A stretch of 64,000 bases of DNA from Pseudomonas sp. DY-1 (GTDB lineage Bacteria > Pseudomonadota > Gammaproteobacteria > Pseudomonadales > Pseudomonadaceae): contig NZ_CP032616.1 of the NCBI RefSeq assembly GCF_003626975.1, positions 2,728,001 through 2,792,000 on the forward strand, read 5' to 3'. Made by a program: the position numbers and the translations under genes. The first letter of the stretch is position 1; every line of letters starts with the position of its first letter. The notes beneath the pieces were generated by a model that was not told the DNA's origin, searched no databases, and saw nothing but the letters and a program-made list of their open reading frames with translations. Shown here one piece after another: positions 1 through 17,385 of this stretch.

Positions 1-201
1 ATAGCCCGGCAGGTCGGGAACGATGACGCGGTAACCGGCGTCAGCGAATTCCAGATAGTTCTGCTTGAAGTTGCTATGGCCGCTGGCGCCGGGGCCGCTG
101 CCATGGATGAACACCACCGTTTCGCCTTCTCCCGCCTCGATGTAATGCAGTCGCAGGCCATCGGGCAGCGTGACGAAACGCCCTGGCAATCGCGCGTCCA
201 T
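1..201 (-). CDS. Alpha/beta hydrolase, N-terminal part (meta-cleavage product hydrolase, HsaD/TesD-like candidate)
   Basis: Only the first 67 codons are in the window; the gene continues past the left edge. The ATG at 201 is preceded by a GAGGAGA ribosome site. The visible protein begins [16 protein letters not shown] and contains the oxyanion-hole segment [13 protein letters not shown] and the strand PDLPGYG, the pattern of C-C bond hydrolases that cleave meta-ring-fission products. The nucleophile Ser, the acid and the His lie outside the window. Because an extradiol dioxygenase of the HsaC type is encoded in the same cluster, a role in hydrolysing the ring-cleaved seco-steroid (4,9-DSHA) is plausible, but this is inference from context. 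Any other alpha/beta hydrolase with the HGSGPG motif remains possible. Confidence 0.75.
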
Positions 202-592
202 GGGACTCTCCTCGGCTTGTTGTTTGCCGGGATTATTCGGGCGGGCCGGCAGGCCAACATCGTCCGAGAGGACTAGCAGACACTGCGCCGGGTTGGGATG
301 AAGTACTTGTAGGTGCGAACGCATTCGCTATTGCAGCGTTAGCTTTTGCGAGCGATTTACAATCGGGCCAAGAGCCTTGTAGGAGCTGGCTTGCCAGCGA
401 AACGGGGCCATTCGCTGGCAAGCCAGCTCCTACAGGCCATGCATCTACTTGCAACACGTCATGCAGAAAGAGCCAATTCATTCGCCCCTGCAGAAATGGG
501 CCCCAAACGTGGAAGCCCTAGTCCTCCCGGACGTAGGCGGCCCGTCCTGCCCGCCCTAGCCTCTGCCCATCGACATTTCAGAGGAAACGACC
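202..592. repeat. Intergenic region with a 24-bp perfect inverted repeat
   Basis: No coding signal is convincing here. Positions 379-402 and 411-434 form a perfect 24-bp inverted repeat around an 8-base loop; each arm carries the GTAGGAGCTGGCTTGCCAGC type of Pseudomonas repetitive palindrome. Around 313-332 there is a degenerate GTGCGAACGCATTCGC repeat arm and around 477-491 a second CATTCGCCCCTGCA arm. The region must also hold the promoters of the diverging hydrolase (leftward) and SDR (rightward), which I could not pin down. Confidence 0.7.
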
Positions 593-1366
593 ATGGGCGA
601 TGCATTGGATTTCAGCGGCAAGGTGGTTCTGGTAACCGGTGGCGGCAAGGGTGTGGGCCGGGGCATCAGCCAGCGCTTTCTCGCCGGTGGCGCCGAGGTG
701 GTGATCTGCGGCCGCAATGCCCCGGACGTATTGCCCCGTCACGCAGGCCGCGAGGCTCTGTTCCTGCCGTGTGACGTGCGCGATATCGAGCAGCTGCAAC
801 GCATGCTGGACAACATCGTCGAGCGCTTCGGACGGCTCGACGTACTGGTGAACAACGCTGGCGGCGCACCCCATGCCGAGGCGGCCACGGCCTCGCCGCG
901 CTTCTCCGAATCCATCATCCGTCTCAACCTGCTGGCGCCGCTCAACCTCTGCCAACTGGCCAACCGGGTGATGCAGGCCCAGCCCGAGGGCGGCGCCATC
1001 GTCAACATCTGCAGCGTCAGCGCCACCCGCCCCTCCCCTGGCACCGCCGCTTATGGTGCGGCCAAGGCCGGACTGCTCAACCTCACCCGCTCGCTCGCGG
1101 TGGAATGGGCGCCCAAAGTAAGGGTGAATGCCATAACGGCGGGGCTGATCCTCACCGAACAGGCGGAGCTGCATTACGGCGATGCCGAGGGTGTGGCACG
1201 GGTAGCGGCGGGAATTCCGCTGCAGCGCATGGCGAGCCCCGAGGACATTGGTGATGCCTGTCTGTACCTGGCATCGCGCCTTTCCAGCTACGTGAGCGGC
1301 GCGGATATCTGCGTGCATGGCGGGGGAGAGAAGCCGGCGTTTCTGGAGCAGGCGGGGGCAAATTGA
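593..1366 (+). CDS. Short-chain dehydrogenase/reductase at edge of steroid cluster
   Basis: A 257-residue classical SDR. The Rossmann motif TGGGKGVG is at residues 15-22, NNAG at 87-90, and the catalytic triad is Ser141, Tyr154 and Lys158 (YGAAK). The start is the ATG at 593 behind GAGGAAACGACC. It is the only rightward gene in the first 17 kb and faces the leftward SnoaL-type gene, with a hairpin repeat between them. Position beside steroid genes suggests a hydroxysteroid or hydroxyacyl-CoA dehydrogenase working with NAD(P), but SDR sequence alone does not fix the substrate. The C-terminus VHGGGEKPAFLEQ is not diagnostic. Function assigned at family level only. Confidence 0.85.
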   Translation: MGDALDFSGKVVLVTGGGKGVGRGISQRFLAGGAEVVICGRNAPDVLPRHAGREALFLPCDVRDIEQLQRMLDNIVERFGRLDVLVNNAGGAPHAEAATASPRFSESIIRLNLLAPLNLCQLANRVMQAQPEGGAIVNICSVSATRPSPGTAAYGAAKAGLLNLTRSLAVEWAPKVRVNAITAGLILTEQAELHYGDAEGVARVAAGIPLQRMASPEDIGDACLYLASRLSSYVSGADICVHGGGEKPAFLEQAGAN

Positions 1367-1376
1367 ACGCGCGCCT

Positions 1377-1462
1377 GTAGGTTGGCACTGCGTTTGAAAA
1401 GCCCAACATCACCCGGGTCGACCTGACGATGTTGGGCCTCGCTTCGTTCGGCGCCAACCTAC
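1377..1462. repeat. Nested inverted repeat between converging genes
   Basis: Outer arms GTAGGTTGGC (1377-1386) and GCCAACCTAC (1453-1462) and inner arms GCCCAACATC (1401-1410) and GATGTTGGGC (1428-1437) form a long nested hairpin. It lies between two converging genes and overlaps the stop codon of the leftward one, so it could work as a two-way transcription stop. This is a common type of Pseudomonas intergenic palindrome. Confidence 0.75.
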
Positions 1463-15588: not shown

Positions 15589-15598
15589 CTCAGCGTCC

Positions 15599-16480
15599 TC
15601 AGAAAACCGGGAGCGGCAGTTGGCGGATGGCGTCCAGGCCACCTACGCGCGCGAGGTACTCCGCTTCCCCGCAGTTCACGTAGCGCTCCATGTAGGCCTG
15701 CCAGCCTTCTGGCTCGGCGGCCGAGGCGTTGTAGGCCTTGAAGTGAGCGGTGTCGAAGCCGTAGAGCGGCGCACAGGACGACGGGTGGGCGCCGCCTGGC
15801 AGATGAACGACGGCACTGGTGCGGTTGCGTTCCCAGAACACCTGGCGGGCGCGGGCCGGGTCCTCATGGAACCAGGCGCTGTCGACCAGCTCGTCACAAC
15901 TGACAAAAGCCTTCTGTGCGGCACGCACGAAGAGGTCGTCCATATAGTGGTCGGGACCAGCGATCTGGCAGACGCCGCGGACATCGGCGCGGTCGACGTG
16001 AACCAGCGCCGCATCGAGCTTCAGCGCGGGCATGGCAACCCAGTCGCGACTGTCGTCGTAGGGGGAACTGACCAGCTTCAGTTCCGGGTTGATGCTCAGC
16101 ACGTCGGTGCCCAGGCCCACGGCAGTGGGAATGAACGGCACGTTCATGGCGGCGGCCCTGAGGCCGAGCAGTAGCATGCCTTCGTCGATCTCCATCACTT
16201 CCACGGCGCCTTCCTGGCGGGCCTTGCGGAAGTAGGGTTCGAGCGGGATGAAGTCCAGCGAGACGAAGGCGTAGACCAGCTTCTTCACCTTGCCGGCGGC
16301 ACAGAGCATGCCGACGTCGGCGCCGCCATAGGCGACCACCGTGAGGTCCTTGAGGCCGGAGCGCAGAATCTCGCGGACCAGGGCCATGGGCTTGCGCCTC
16401 GGGCCCCAACCGCCGATGCCAATGGTCATGCCGTCGCGTAGCTGTCCGACCACGTCGGCAGCGGTCATGCGTTTGTCCAT
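15599..16480 (-). CDS. ipdA: IpdA, alpha subunit of COCHEA-CoA hydrolase
   Basis: A 293-residue CoA-transferase family I protein, alpha-type. GIGGWGPRRKPMALVREI (about 21-38) is the N-terminal glycine loop. Residues 94-101 read EVMEIDEG followed by MLLLGLRAAA; one of the acidic residues here (Glu97 or Glu100) should be the catalytic Glu of the family, although I could not align it exactly. Also seen: ALVHVDRADVRG and GPDHYMDDLFVRAA. It begins at ATG 16480, 11 bases after the dioxygenase stop, so ring A cleavage and C/D-ring cleavage genes share an operon. Confidence 0.87.
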   Translation of the reverse strand: MDKRMTAADVVGQLRDGMTIGIGGWGPRRKPMALVREILRSGLKDLTVVAYGGADVGMLCAAGKVKKLVYAFVSLDFIPLEPYFRKARQEGAVEVMEIDEGMLLLGLRAAAMNVPFIPTAVGLGTDVLSINPELKLVSSPYDDSRDWVAMPALKLDAALVHVDRADVRGVCQIAGPDHYMDDLFVRAAQKAFVSCDELVDSAWFHEDPARARQVFWERNRTSAVVHLPGGAHPSSCAPLYGFDTAHFKAYNASAAEPEGWQAYMERYVNCGEAEYLARVGGLDAIRQLPLPVF

Positions 16481-16491
16481 GGGGCGGCTCC

Positions 16492-17385
16492 TTATTGACG
16501 GCCGACGCTGAAGTCATGGCCCCAGTGGCTGACCACGGTGCTCTCGAAGGGGGTATGGCGCTCCCAGTCCATGACCTTGCCGCCACAGCCGTACTCCAGG
16601 TCGAAGCCGCCCGGGGTCTGCATGTAGAAGCTGGTCATGTCGTCGTTGGTATGGCGACCGAGGGTGGCGGAGAGCTTCACACCGCTGGCGTGCATGCGGT
16701 CCAGCGCGCGGCCGACGTCATCCAGTTCGTGCACTTCCACCATCAGGTGCACGCAGCCCGACGGGATCGGACACTCGAACAGCGCCAGGGAGTGGTGGCG
16801 GCCGTTGTTGCAATGGAGGAAGTGGATGCGCTTTTCCGGTTCGGCCGGATCGGGGGTGAAGCGCACCTTCATCAGGTCGGAAAGGCCGAAGCCCATGACG
16901 CGCTCGTAGAAATCCAGGCAGCGGTCGAAGGCCGGTGCCGGCAGTACGGCATGGCCCATGCCGAGGTCGCTGGTGACGAAGCCGGAAACACCGACCGGGG
17001 ACATGAAGGGAGCGAAGTCCTGCAGCGGACCCCAGAACAGCTCGTGACGGTTGCCGTCCGGATCAGCGAATCGCGCCAGTTCCTGCACCTTGCGGCTGAC
17101 GGCATCGGCCGCGCTACCGCGCTGGACTTCCACATCGGCCTGTTGCAGCTCGGCAATGGCCTGCTCGAAGGCAGCCTTGCCGGCGACCTCCCAACCGCAG
17201 GCGCCATATCCGTCATGGTCGGCGCGCTCAACCAGGATGCGGTAGGGACGTTCGTCCATTTTCAGGTAGAGCCGCTCGCCCGCTACGGCATCCACCATCA
17301 TGCCGAGCACCCCGGTGGCGTAATCGCCCCAGCGCTTCAGGTCTGTCGAGGCTACGGTGACGTAACCCAGGCCACGGATATCCAT
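16492..17385 (-). CDS. hsaC: Extradiol ring-cleavage dioxygenase, HsaC/TesB-like
   Basis: A 297-residue two-domain vicinal-oxygen-chelate dioxygenase. Iron ligands are His145 (GMGHAVL), His213 (VHLMVEV) and Glu264 (FDLEYGC); supporting residues His198, His245 and Tyr254 also match BphC-type enzymes. Blocks GRHTNDDMTSFYMQTPGGFD and the end VVSHWGHDFSVG agree with my memory of HsaC, which opens the aromatised ring A of 3,4-DHSA. It is the first gene of the leftward operon; ATG 17385 starts MDIRGLGYVTV, and 14 upstream in-frame residues lack similarity. A biphenyl-type BphC is the alternative, but no biphenyl genes are nearby. Confidence 0.88.
   Translation of the reverse strand: MDIRGLGYVTVASTDLKRWGDYATGVLGMMVDAVAGERLYLKMDERPYRILVERADHDGYGACGWEVAGKAAFEQAIAELQQADVEVQRGSAADAVSRKVQELARFADPDGNRHELFWGPLQDFAPFMSPVGVSGFVTSDLGMGHAVLPAPAFDRCLDFYERVMGFGLSDLMKVRFTPDPAEPEKRIHFLHCNNGRHHSLALFECPIPSGCVHLMVEVHELDDVGRALDRMHASGVKLSATLGRHTNDDMTSFYMQTPGGFDLEYGCGGKVMDWERHTPFESTVVSHWGHDFSVGRQ

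Follow-up and report, generated by a model that had tools for sequence, protein, structure and literature searches.

The closest described counterparts of the genes considered here are the steA-tesR and tesG-scdA clusters of Comamonas testosteroni TA441, whose gene set, as far as the accessible parts of the TA441 papers go, is the one found here. The KstR2-regulated genes for degradation of methylhexahydroindanedione propionate (HIP) in Mycobacterium and Rhodococcus (ipdABC, echA20, ipdF, fadA6, fadE) specify the same enzyme set, and the mycobacterial gene order differs from the order here. In Pseudomonas putida DOC21, IpdC is the enzyme that was used, with IpdF, for reconstitution on 5-OH HIC-CoA, and its gene comes from a predicted operon described as resembling one with ipdAB (PMC5380842, accessible part). 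Here we describe a 64,000-base stretch of the Pseudomonas sp. DY-1 genome (the window, bases 2728001-2792000 of contig 2; genome 5.91 Mb in two contigs) that holds such a cluster, together with a dyad, consensus CTAGTCCnnnCGGACGATG, that recurs ahead of steroid genes and may be their operator.

As regards regulation, the accessible parts of PMC6678751 and PMC8700777 present TeiR/TesR of Comamonas as a LuxR-type positive regulator; TeiR is also described as a kinase at the cell pole, with no operator given, in the accessible parts of PMC8399759, PMC6678751 and PMC8700777. What is accessible of PMC8399759 calls the mechanisms of steroid regulation in such bacteria largely unknown, reports KstR homologs to be absent from bile-acid-degrading Proteobacteria, and describes two TeiR-like genes in the cluster of P. 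stutzeri Chol1, deletion of one of which strongly delays growth on cholate.

We conclude, with a probability of roughly 0.88, that the window carries tesB and the C/D-ring genes of a complete aerobic pathway for 9,10-seco steroid degradation of the Comamonas/Pseudomonas type, that its substrates are probably testosterone-like C19 steroids and that the upper pathway lies at two other loci; judged from sequence, the three loci are most likely one regulon, probably activated by a LuxR-type protein. An earlier note on this DNA had reported 17 leftward genes with short spacers, and these are present, from the tesB ATG (17385) down to the end of a SnoaL-like gene (1459) on the minus strand. Neighbouring genes overlap or lie at most 47 bp apart, barring three larger gaps of 128 bp (3535-3662, scdD/scdJ), 158 bp (8349-8506) and 210 bp (7263-7472). 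Open reading frames were called from codon-position G+C and family scans; names such as scdL1 were assigned by position and from the TA441 papers, not by alignment to the TA441 sequence. The features are as follows, in window coordinates (SDR, short-chain dehydrogenase/reductase).

17472..17490, minus strand: operator-like dyad CTAGTCCCATTGGACGATG, lying 86 bp upstream of the tesB ATG; one mismatch to consensus; block kept in four relatives
16492..17385, minus: tesB/hsaC, ring-A 4,5-extradiol dioxygenase; NF045631 298 bits (cut-off 450), BphC 300 bits (cut-off 366); best solved relative 2zi8
15599..16480, minus: ipdA (scdL1); 254.8 bits to 6co6_A vs 101.3 to glutaconate CoA-transferase; Glu of DEGM kept
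14776..15588, minus: ipdB (scdL2); 170.9 bits to 6con_B vs 52.5 to glutaconate CoA-transferase
13891..14760, minus: echA20-like ring hydratase (scdN); NF006140 459 bits, above cut-off; best solved relative 3t3w
12809..13891, minus: ipdC, flavin-dependent (scdK), of the FabK/nitronate monooxygenase family; named from synteny
12039..12842 (start approximate), minus: crotonase (scdY); NF005925 382 bits, above cut-off
10868..12079 (start approximate), minus: acyl-CoA dehydrogenase (scdM1); PimC profile 249 bits, below cut-off
9805..10995 (start approximate), minus: acyl-CoA dehydrogenase (scdM2); IpdE2 profile 145 bits, below cut-off
8507..9757 (start approximate), minus: fadA6-like thiolase (scdF); NF005865 693 bits, above cut-off
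7473..8348, minus: SDR dehydrogenase (scdE); NF005861 456 bits, above cut-off
7326..7341, no strand assigned: operator-like dyad TCGTCCGGATGGACGA, within the 210-bp gap and 63 bp upstream of the scdC1 ATG; symmetric core match
6105..7262, minus: acyl-CoA dehydrogenase (scdC1); PimD 221 and IpdE2 201 bits, below cut-off
4921..6267 (start approximate), minus: acyl-CoA dehydrogenase (scdC2); PimC profile 222 bits, below cut-off
4124..4906, minus: SDR hydroxyacyl dehydrogenase (scdG); NF005880 446 bits, above cut-off
3663..4121, minus: MaoC hydratase (scdD); PF01575 86 bits
2302..3534, minus: thiolase (scdJ); TIGR01930 403 bits, above cut-off
1902..2345, minus: SnoaL-like protein; PF12680 45 bits
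1459..1905, minus: SnoaL-like protein; PF13577 80 bits, scored on the longer frame 1459-2025
593..1366, plus: SDR in opposite orientation, at this position in relatives too; NF005893 400 bits, above cut-off
258..276, minus: operator-like dyad CTAGTCCTCTCGGACGATG, lying 56 bp upstream of the tesD ATG; exact consensus match
1..201 (cut by the window edge), minus: tesD (hsaD); tesE, tesF and tesG come next, outside the window

The cluster thus holds tesB, ipdAB, echA20, ipdC, pairs of acyl-CoA dehydrogenases, SDRs, a MaoC hydratase and thiolases together, which is what marks a tes/scd cluster. The earlier note had recognised steroid ring catabolism with HIP-CoA (ipd) genes in a Pseudomonas-type genome, and the protein families, the gene order and the IpdAB scores support it. 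By bit score, IpdA and IpdB are nearest to IpdAB among solved proteins of the CoA-transferase fold; we take 6co6 and 6con to be IpdAB of Rhodococcus and M. tuberculosis. Aligned with 6co6, IpdA retains the Glu of the DEGM motif, presumably the catalytic residue, at a position where 6coj has Ala. The best solved relative of TesB, 2zi8, we take to be HsaC. What the note had called a ketosteroid isomerase is in fact two SnoaL-like proteins (PF12680 and PF13577 matches) of putative function.

The note had also placed KstD, KshA, HsaA/B, a CoA ligase and a regulator elsewhere, and all were located, the regulator as a candidate, at two further loci.

Locus 2, 2.849-2.870 Mb: KstD-type gene (2851459-2853390), DUF1302 gene, two DUF1329 genes, SDRs, an old yellow enzyme-type gene, an alpha/beta hydrolase, KshA (2866518-2867564) and a LuxR/GerE gene (2867619-2868803)
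Locus 3, 5.691-5.709 Mb: luciferase-like gene, HsaA (5696016), flavin reductase (HsaB by position), FAD-binding protein (putative TesI, by position), SDR, ferredoxin-reductase-type protein (KshB-like), SDR and AMP-binding ligase (5702609)

KstD and KshA lie 106 and 121 kb to the right, and HsaA/HsaB, the KshB-like reductase and the CoA ligase 2.95 Mb off. KstD-, KshA- and HsaA/HsaB-type genes are thus all in the genome, KshA_C scoring above its cut-off and the KstD and HsaA models below theirs. Steroid genes were also sought beyond the left edge of the window, and tesD-tesE-tesF-tesG continue there. Two other candidates were set aside: a CoA-transferase pair at 1.424 Mb is not a further IpdAB, its neighbours being pcaF, pcaB and pcaD, and of three FAD dehydrogenases at 1.403-1.419 Mb considered as KstD the two that were scanned both fit other models better.

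By homology, TesB would open the aromatic ring A, TesD would release a C6 dienoate and TesEFG would degrade it. The CoA ligase of locus 3 would activate the remaining HIP-like acid, which acyl-CoA dehydrogenase, MaoC, SDR and thiolase enzymes would shorten; an SDR with IpdC, EchA20 and IpdAB would then open both remaining rings, leaving beta-oxidation to be completed by the other acyl-CoA dehydrogenases, the crotonase and a thiolase.

Alignment of the regions upstream of tesB from the window and four relatives gave a single conserved block, the source of the dyad, and the dyad was found again ahead of other steroid genes. Genome counts allowed at most one mismatch to the consensus, with the reversed pattern as control. 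The host genome has nine copies, all nine within the three steroid loci, and none of the control.

Window locus: 2728258 (tesD), 2745472 (tesB)
Locus 2: 2849572 (SDR-like frame, by eye; AraC-type gene on the other side), 2853284 (kstD), 2864362 (SDR), 2869539 (near the end of the nudE frame)
Locus 3: 5692177 (EthD-domain gene), 5697389 (hsaB, with divergent hsaA), 5709129 (unstudied genes)

In a genus sample of 18 genomes (given codes with G, host included) the dyad has 106 copies and the reversed pattern 17. Of the 106, 103 fall in the 13 steroid-positive genomes, the host among them (4-11 each), and the five negative ones have 0, 1, 1, 1 and 0. For 93 of the 103 copies, a marker gene (IpdB, KshA or HsaA) is found on the same contig at no more than 45 kb. 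Of the remaining ten, the G005 draft has six: two at distances of 89 and 94 kb from IpdB, three on a contig bearing kstD and DUF1302, and one on contig 5. The G014 draft has three, of which one lies 47 kb from a marker and two are on marker-free contigs, and G002 has one. Among the steroid-negative genomes, the single copy of G013 sits between YdjM and TAXI; those of G008 and G009 (L221 and L222, in the symmetric form TAGTCCCAACGGACTA) precede relatives of DUF1302/DUF1329 proteins with 48-53% identity. Because these symmetric copies occur in genomes without IpdB and KshA, a regulator of this type may control other lipid uptake too.

A symmetric core pattern, TMGTCYnnnnRGACKA, has 16 matches in 351,000 bases (17 chosen stretches), all in the three steroid loci, and adds sites before scdC1 (window 7326), DUF1302, kshA and others. 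In a control of 360 half-site orderings, the real one included, the average was 0.41 matches, and the runner-up (11) is nearly the same pattern. Since a dyad stands at 7326, the 17 genes are likely to form more than one transcription unit. The dyad precedes the ATG by 56 to 86 bp in the three genes measured (tesB, tesD and scdC1), and TTTAAT (tesB) and AATAAT (tesD) follow it at 21-26 bp; if these were -10 boxes, the dyad would span about -51 to -33, an activator-like position. A sigma-70 scan gave 1 vs 2.4 in shuffles and a terminator scan 9 vs 10.9, neither above shuffles. As a side observation, three core dyads fall within about 0.7 kb around unstudied genes at 5708561-5709238 of contig 2, which suggests a further steroid-regulated locus.

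The dyad was also counted, at up to two mismatches, in 68 related loci from a genome collection (1,293,579 bases). There are 91 copies and none of the reversed control: 47 before tesB, 24 before hsaB, 10 before the sdrC2 SDR, two each before ipdA, scdC1 and a LuxR relative, one before kshA and three others. A copy is present in 48 of the 49 Pseudomonas loci, the exception being a 5.4 kb contig that starts within ipdA, and in 3 of the 19 others (Azohydromonas, a betaproteobacterial metagenome-assembled genome and Endozoicomonas). At up to three mismatches the counts (control in brackets) are six (1) in Caballeronia, two (1) in Burkholderia arboris and three (0) in Vibrio; each has a copy just before tesB, and only Caballeronia is strong.

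The candidate regulator is a LuxR/GerE protein encoded directly after kshA (2867619-2868803), with a PAS match slightly below the cut-off. It resembles TeiR/TesR of C. testosteroni in being of LuxR/GerE type, 376-394 amino acids long here, and encoded among steroid genes, a likeness of type and gene context rather than of alignment with TeiR. All four relatives examined (G002, G003, G005, G011) have a LuxR/GerE gene beside kshA (76-97%), and in Caballeronia a 46% LuxR relative is located among the dyad sites. The best 120 of 1,732 relatives of the protein are mostly from Pseudomonas, with Endozoicomonas lower in the list. The dyad probably serves one steroid regulon as its operator, with this TeiR/TesR-like protein as its reader. 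Beyond this genome we lean, if only slightly, towards CTAGTCCnnnCGGACGATG being an undescribed steroid operator of gamma- and betaproteobacteria that is bound by TeiR/TesR-type LuxR proteins, defines the regulon and keeps three distant loci co-regulated. A literature search found no description of the dyad, which shows its absence weakly since subscription journals were thinly covered, and a text search by three short dyad strings gave no steroid title among the matches listed. A second LuxR/GerE protein is encoded at window 24048-25187; it is 25% identical to the one beside kshA, has an amino-acid permease neighbour in several relatives, and has no core dyad near it within the window.

Several observations weigh against this interpretation. 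Concerning the enzymes, the HsaC, HsaD and HsaA models, and likewise the KshB-like and acyl-CoA dehydrogenase models, stay under their curated cut-offs. The earlier note had proposed to look at the best characterised relatives; IpdA and IpdB came through as other than ordinary CoA-transferases, but IpdC and EchA20 did not stand apart. The solved matches of IpdC are FabK and nitronate monooxygenase-type entries, none named IpdC, and those of the EchA20-like protein are named enoyl-CoA hydratase only, so both names rest on synteny. HsaA was not found in the draft of G005, the one steroid-positive genome without it; an assembly gap is possible, because the luciferase-like neighbour of hsaA sits at contig ends of that draft. 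Concerning the dyad, the consensus was derived from the host genome and then counted there, and the relatives, a more independent test, are related by descent. The G002 copy at 3711586 has no recognised steroid gene in the surrounding 20 kb. No dyad at up to two mismatches was found in 17 of the 68 related loci (one from Pseudomonas and 16 from elsewhere), and at up to three mismatches Novosphingobium, with 1 copy vs 3 of the control, has no convincing one. The dyad is therefore not universal in steroid loci. Lastly, an AraC-type gene (2847839) adjoins one dyad copy.

This gene raises the question of which protein reads the dyad, and in which sense. A repressor operator, or a site for a different regulator such as this AraC-type protein, we consider rather unlikely though worth keeping in mind. 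A LuxR-type activator is favoured by the retention of the LuxR gene beside kshA in relatives and by the Caballeronia arrangement, as by the positive role given to TeiR/TesR in the papers cited above. LuxR-type proteins bind as dimers, which fits a two-fold dyad. A more radical alternative is that the genes are merely steroid-like and serve another ring substrate, for example a diterpenoid, a cycloalkane acid or some aromatic compound of a meta-pathway, as the PimC/PimD and BphC-like profile scores and the several steroid-enzyme models below cut-off could suggest. We regard this as very improbable, since IpdA and IpdB are far closer to 6co6/6con than to other CoA-transferases, relatives of KshA, KstD and HsaA are present and co-occur in the genus, and P. 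resinovorans NBRC 106553 grows on testosterone, with no growth on cholate or cholesterol (PMC4810484, accessible part). P. resinovorans is a near relative of the host.

The same growth pattern bears on the use of bile acids or sterol side chains, which the earlier note had put forward and for which we found no support, having looked for it through one family only (PF01796). G001 and G016 do have extra genes between the ligase and tesB and between scdE and scdC1, but these are absent here. At 1385081-1387345 of contig 2 an SDR, a thiolase with lipid-transfer and BbsB-type matches, and a small OB_ChsH2_C protein stand in series. The thiolase and the small protein, at 1.386 Mb, could fit a side-chain aldolase; however, the latter, a 124-amino-acid frame, is the sole PF01796 match of the genome, no MaoC-DUF35 protein was found in this one-family search, and no core dyad occurs in the 20 kb around that frame (L037). 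An added ability to degrade bile acids or sterol side chains thus seems improbable for this strain, and testosterone-like C19 steroids stay the probable substrates.

The gene order is a known arrangement, not the distinct one that the note had seen. It equals tesB-scdL1L2-N-K-Y-M1M2-F-E-C1C2-G-D-J of TA441, if the list in the legend to Fig. 1 of PMC13101464 (accessible part) follows the map, and the ten-gene run from tesB to scdE is uninterrupted in 48 of the 68 loci (the first six genes in 50). The same run is annotated on plasmids of Vibrio alfacsensis and Novosphingobium; by tblastn, Caballeronia and Burkholderia arboris have all fifteen genes from tesB to scdJ in the window order, and Novosphingobium has scdC2 placed after scdJ. 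Unlike in TA441, tesD-G here follow the scd genes beyond the opposite SDR (593-1366), which separates the SnoaL genes from tesD, and the upper pathway is at two other loci. Rarity in Pseudomonas, also claimed, does not hold for the genus sample: close IpdB proteins (86-100%) occur in 13 of the 18 genomes, host included, while a further three have nothing beyond a match at about 30% and the last two lack any match; KshA is in the same 13 and HsaA in 12. In the family sample (398 genomes, 19 genera) the carriers are a minority, IpdB being found in 67 genomes of eight genera at 55-100% identity, 54 of them among the 380 genomes outside the genus.

Another close described counterpart is the cluster of P. 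resinovorans DSM 21078, taken to be G005 (the species is now in Metapseudomonas per NCBI, and the window IpdC is 92% identical to one from Metapseudomonas resinovorans). It shares the genes, their order and the flanks (YdjM; TAXI-TRAP and cheB), with 82-99% protein identity from snoaL to DUF1850, and differs in the HsaA missing from its draft and in having about 2.4 kb, vs 210 bp here, between scdE and scdC1. In five relatives (L082-L095) this gap ranges from about 2.4 to 14 kb and its content varies: a HipA-like gene (G011), TauE-like and alpha/beta hydrolase genes (G003), a hydrolase (G005) and DUF1329/DUF1302 (G016). In the window the gap contains a facing pair of palindromes resembling repetitive extragenic palindromes (GCGAATGAATTCGC / GCGAATTCATTCGC), which occur at window 3624, 7374, 7421, 35795, 45205, 49696 and 63459. 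Against solved structures the acyl-CoA dehydrogenases match general family members only, and the fadA6-like thiolase had no match at 1e-80, an over-strict limit.

The scattering of the pathway varies among relatives. In G002 a region of about 63 kb (from 1255473 to about 1318200) holds kshA, kstD, the hsaA block and tesB-tesG, the ligase being the gene immediately ahead of tesB, and G001 and G016 have the hsaA and tesB blocks on one contig, whereas in the host these blocks are 2.95 Mb apart. Among the 54 of 68 loci with tesB, its nearest upstream match is the luciferase/hsaA block in 29 and a ligase in six. An origin-symmetric inversion as the cause of the split is unsupported, the flanks being unmatched in the parts of G002 examined, bar steroid genes and one gene beside locus 3. 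The host cluster is flanked by YdjM and, past tesG, by a TAXI-TRAP transporter, a DUF1850 gene and chemotaxis genes. YdjM and TAXI adjoin in G002 (about 290 bp) with no cluster between, and are about 5.4 kb apart in G013, which lacks the cluster, IpdB and KshA. The TAXI-TRAP transporter was considered as a steroid importer and rejected: five of the 18 genus genomes carry it, including one that has neither IpdB nor KshA, and G002 has YdjM and TAXI-TRAP-DUF1850 side by side with no steroid cluster there. It is therefore part of the chromosomal backbone beside the cluster.

The cluster itself is real and standard, and its bearer joins a known group of steroid degraders; the shared dyad is the part that looks new. 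It marks the promoters of steroid genes in nearly all Pseudomonas loci examined (48 of 49), as well as in some from Burkholderiales and Vibrio, offers a direct binding assay and a part for steroid biosensors, and can serve to find further steroid genes, such as the EthD-domain gene, SDRs and the genes around 5.709 Mb. If the proposal is true, genes scattered over three places would share one on-switch.

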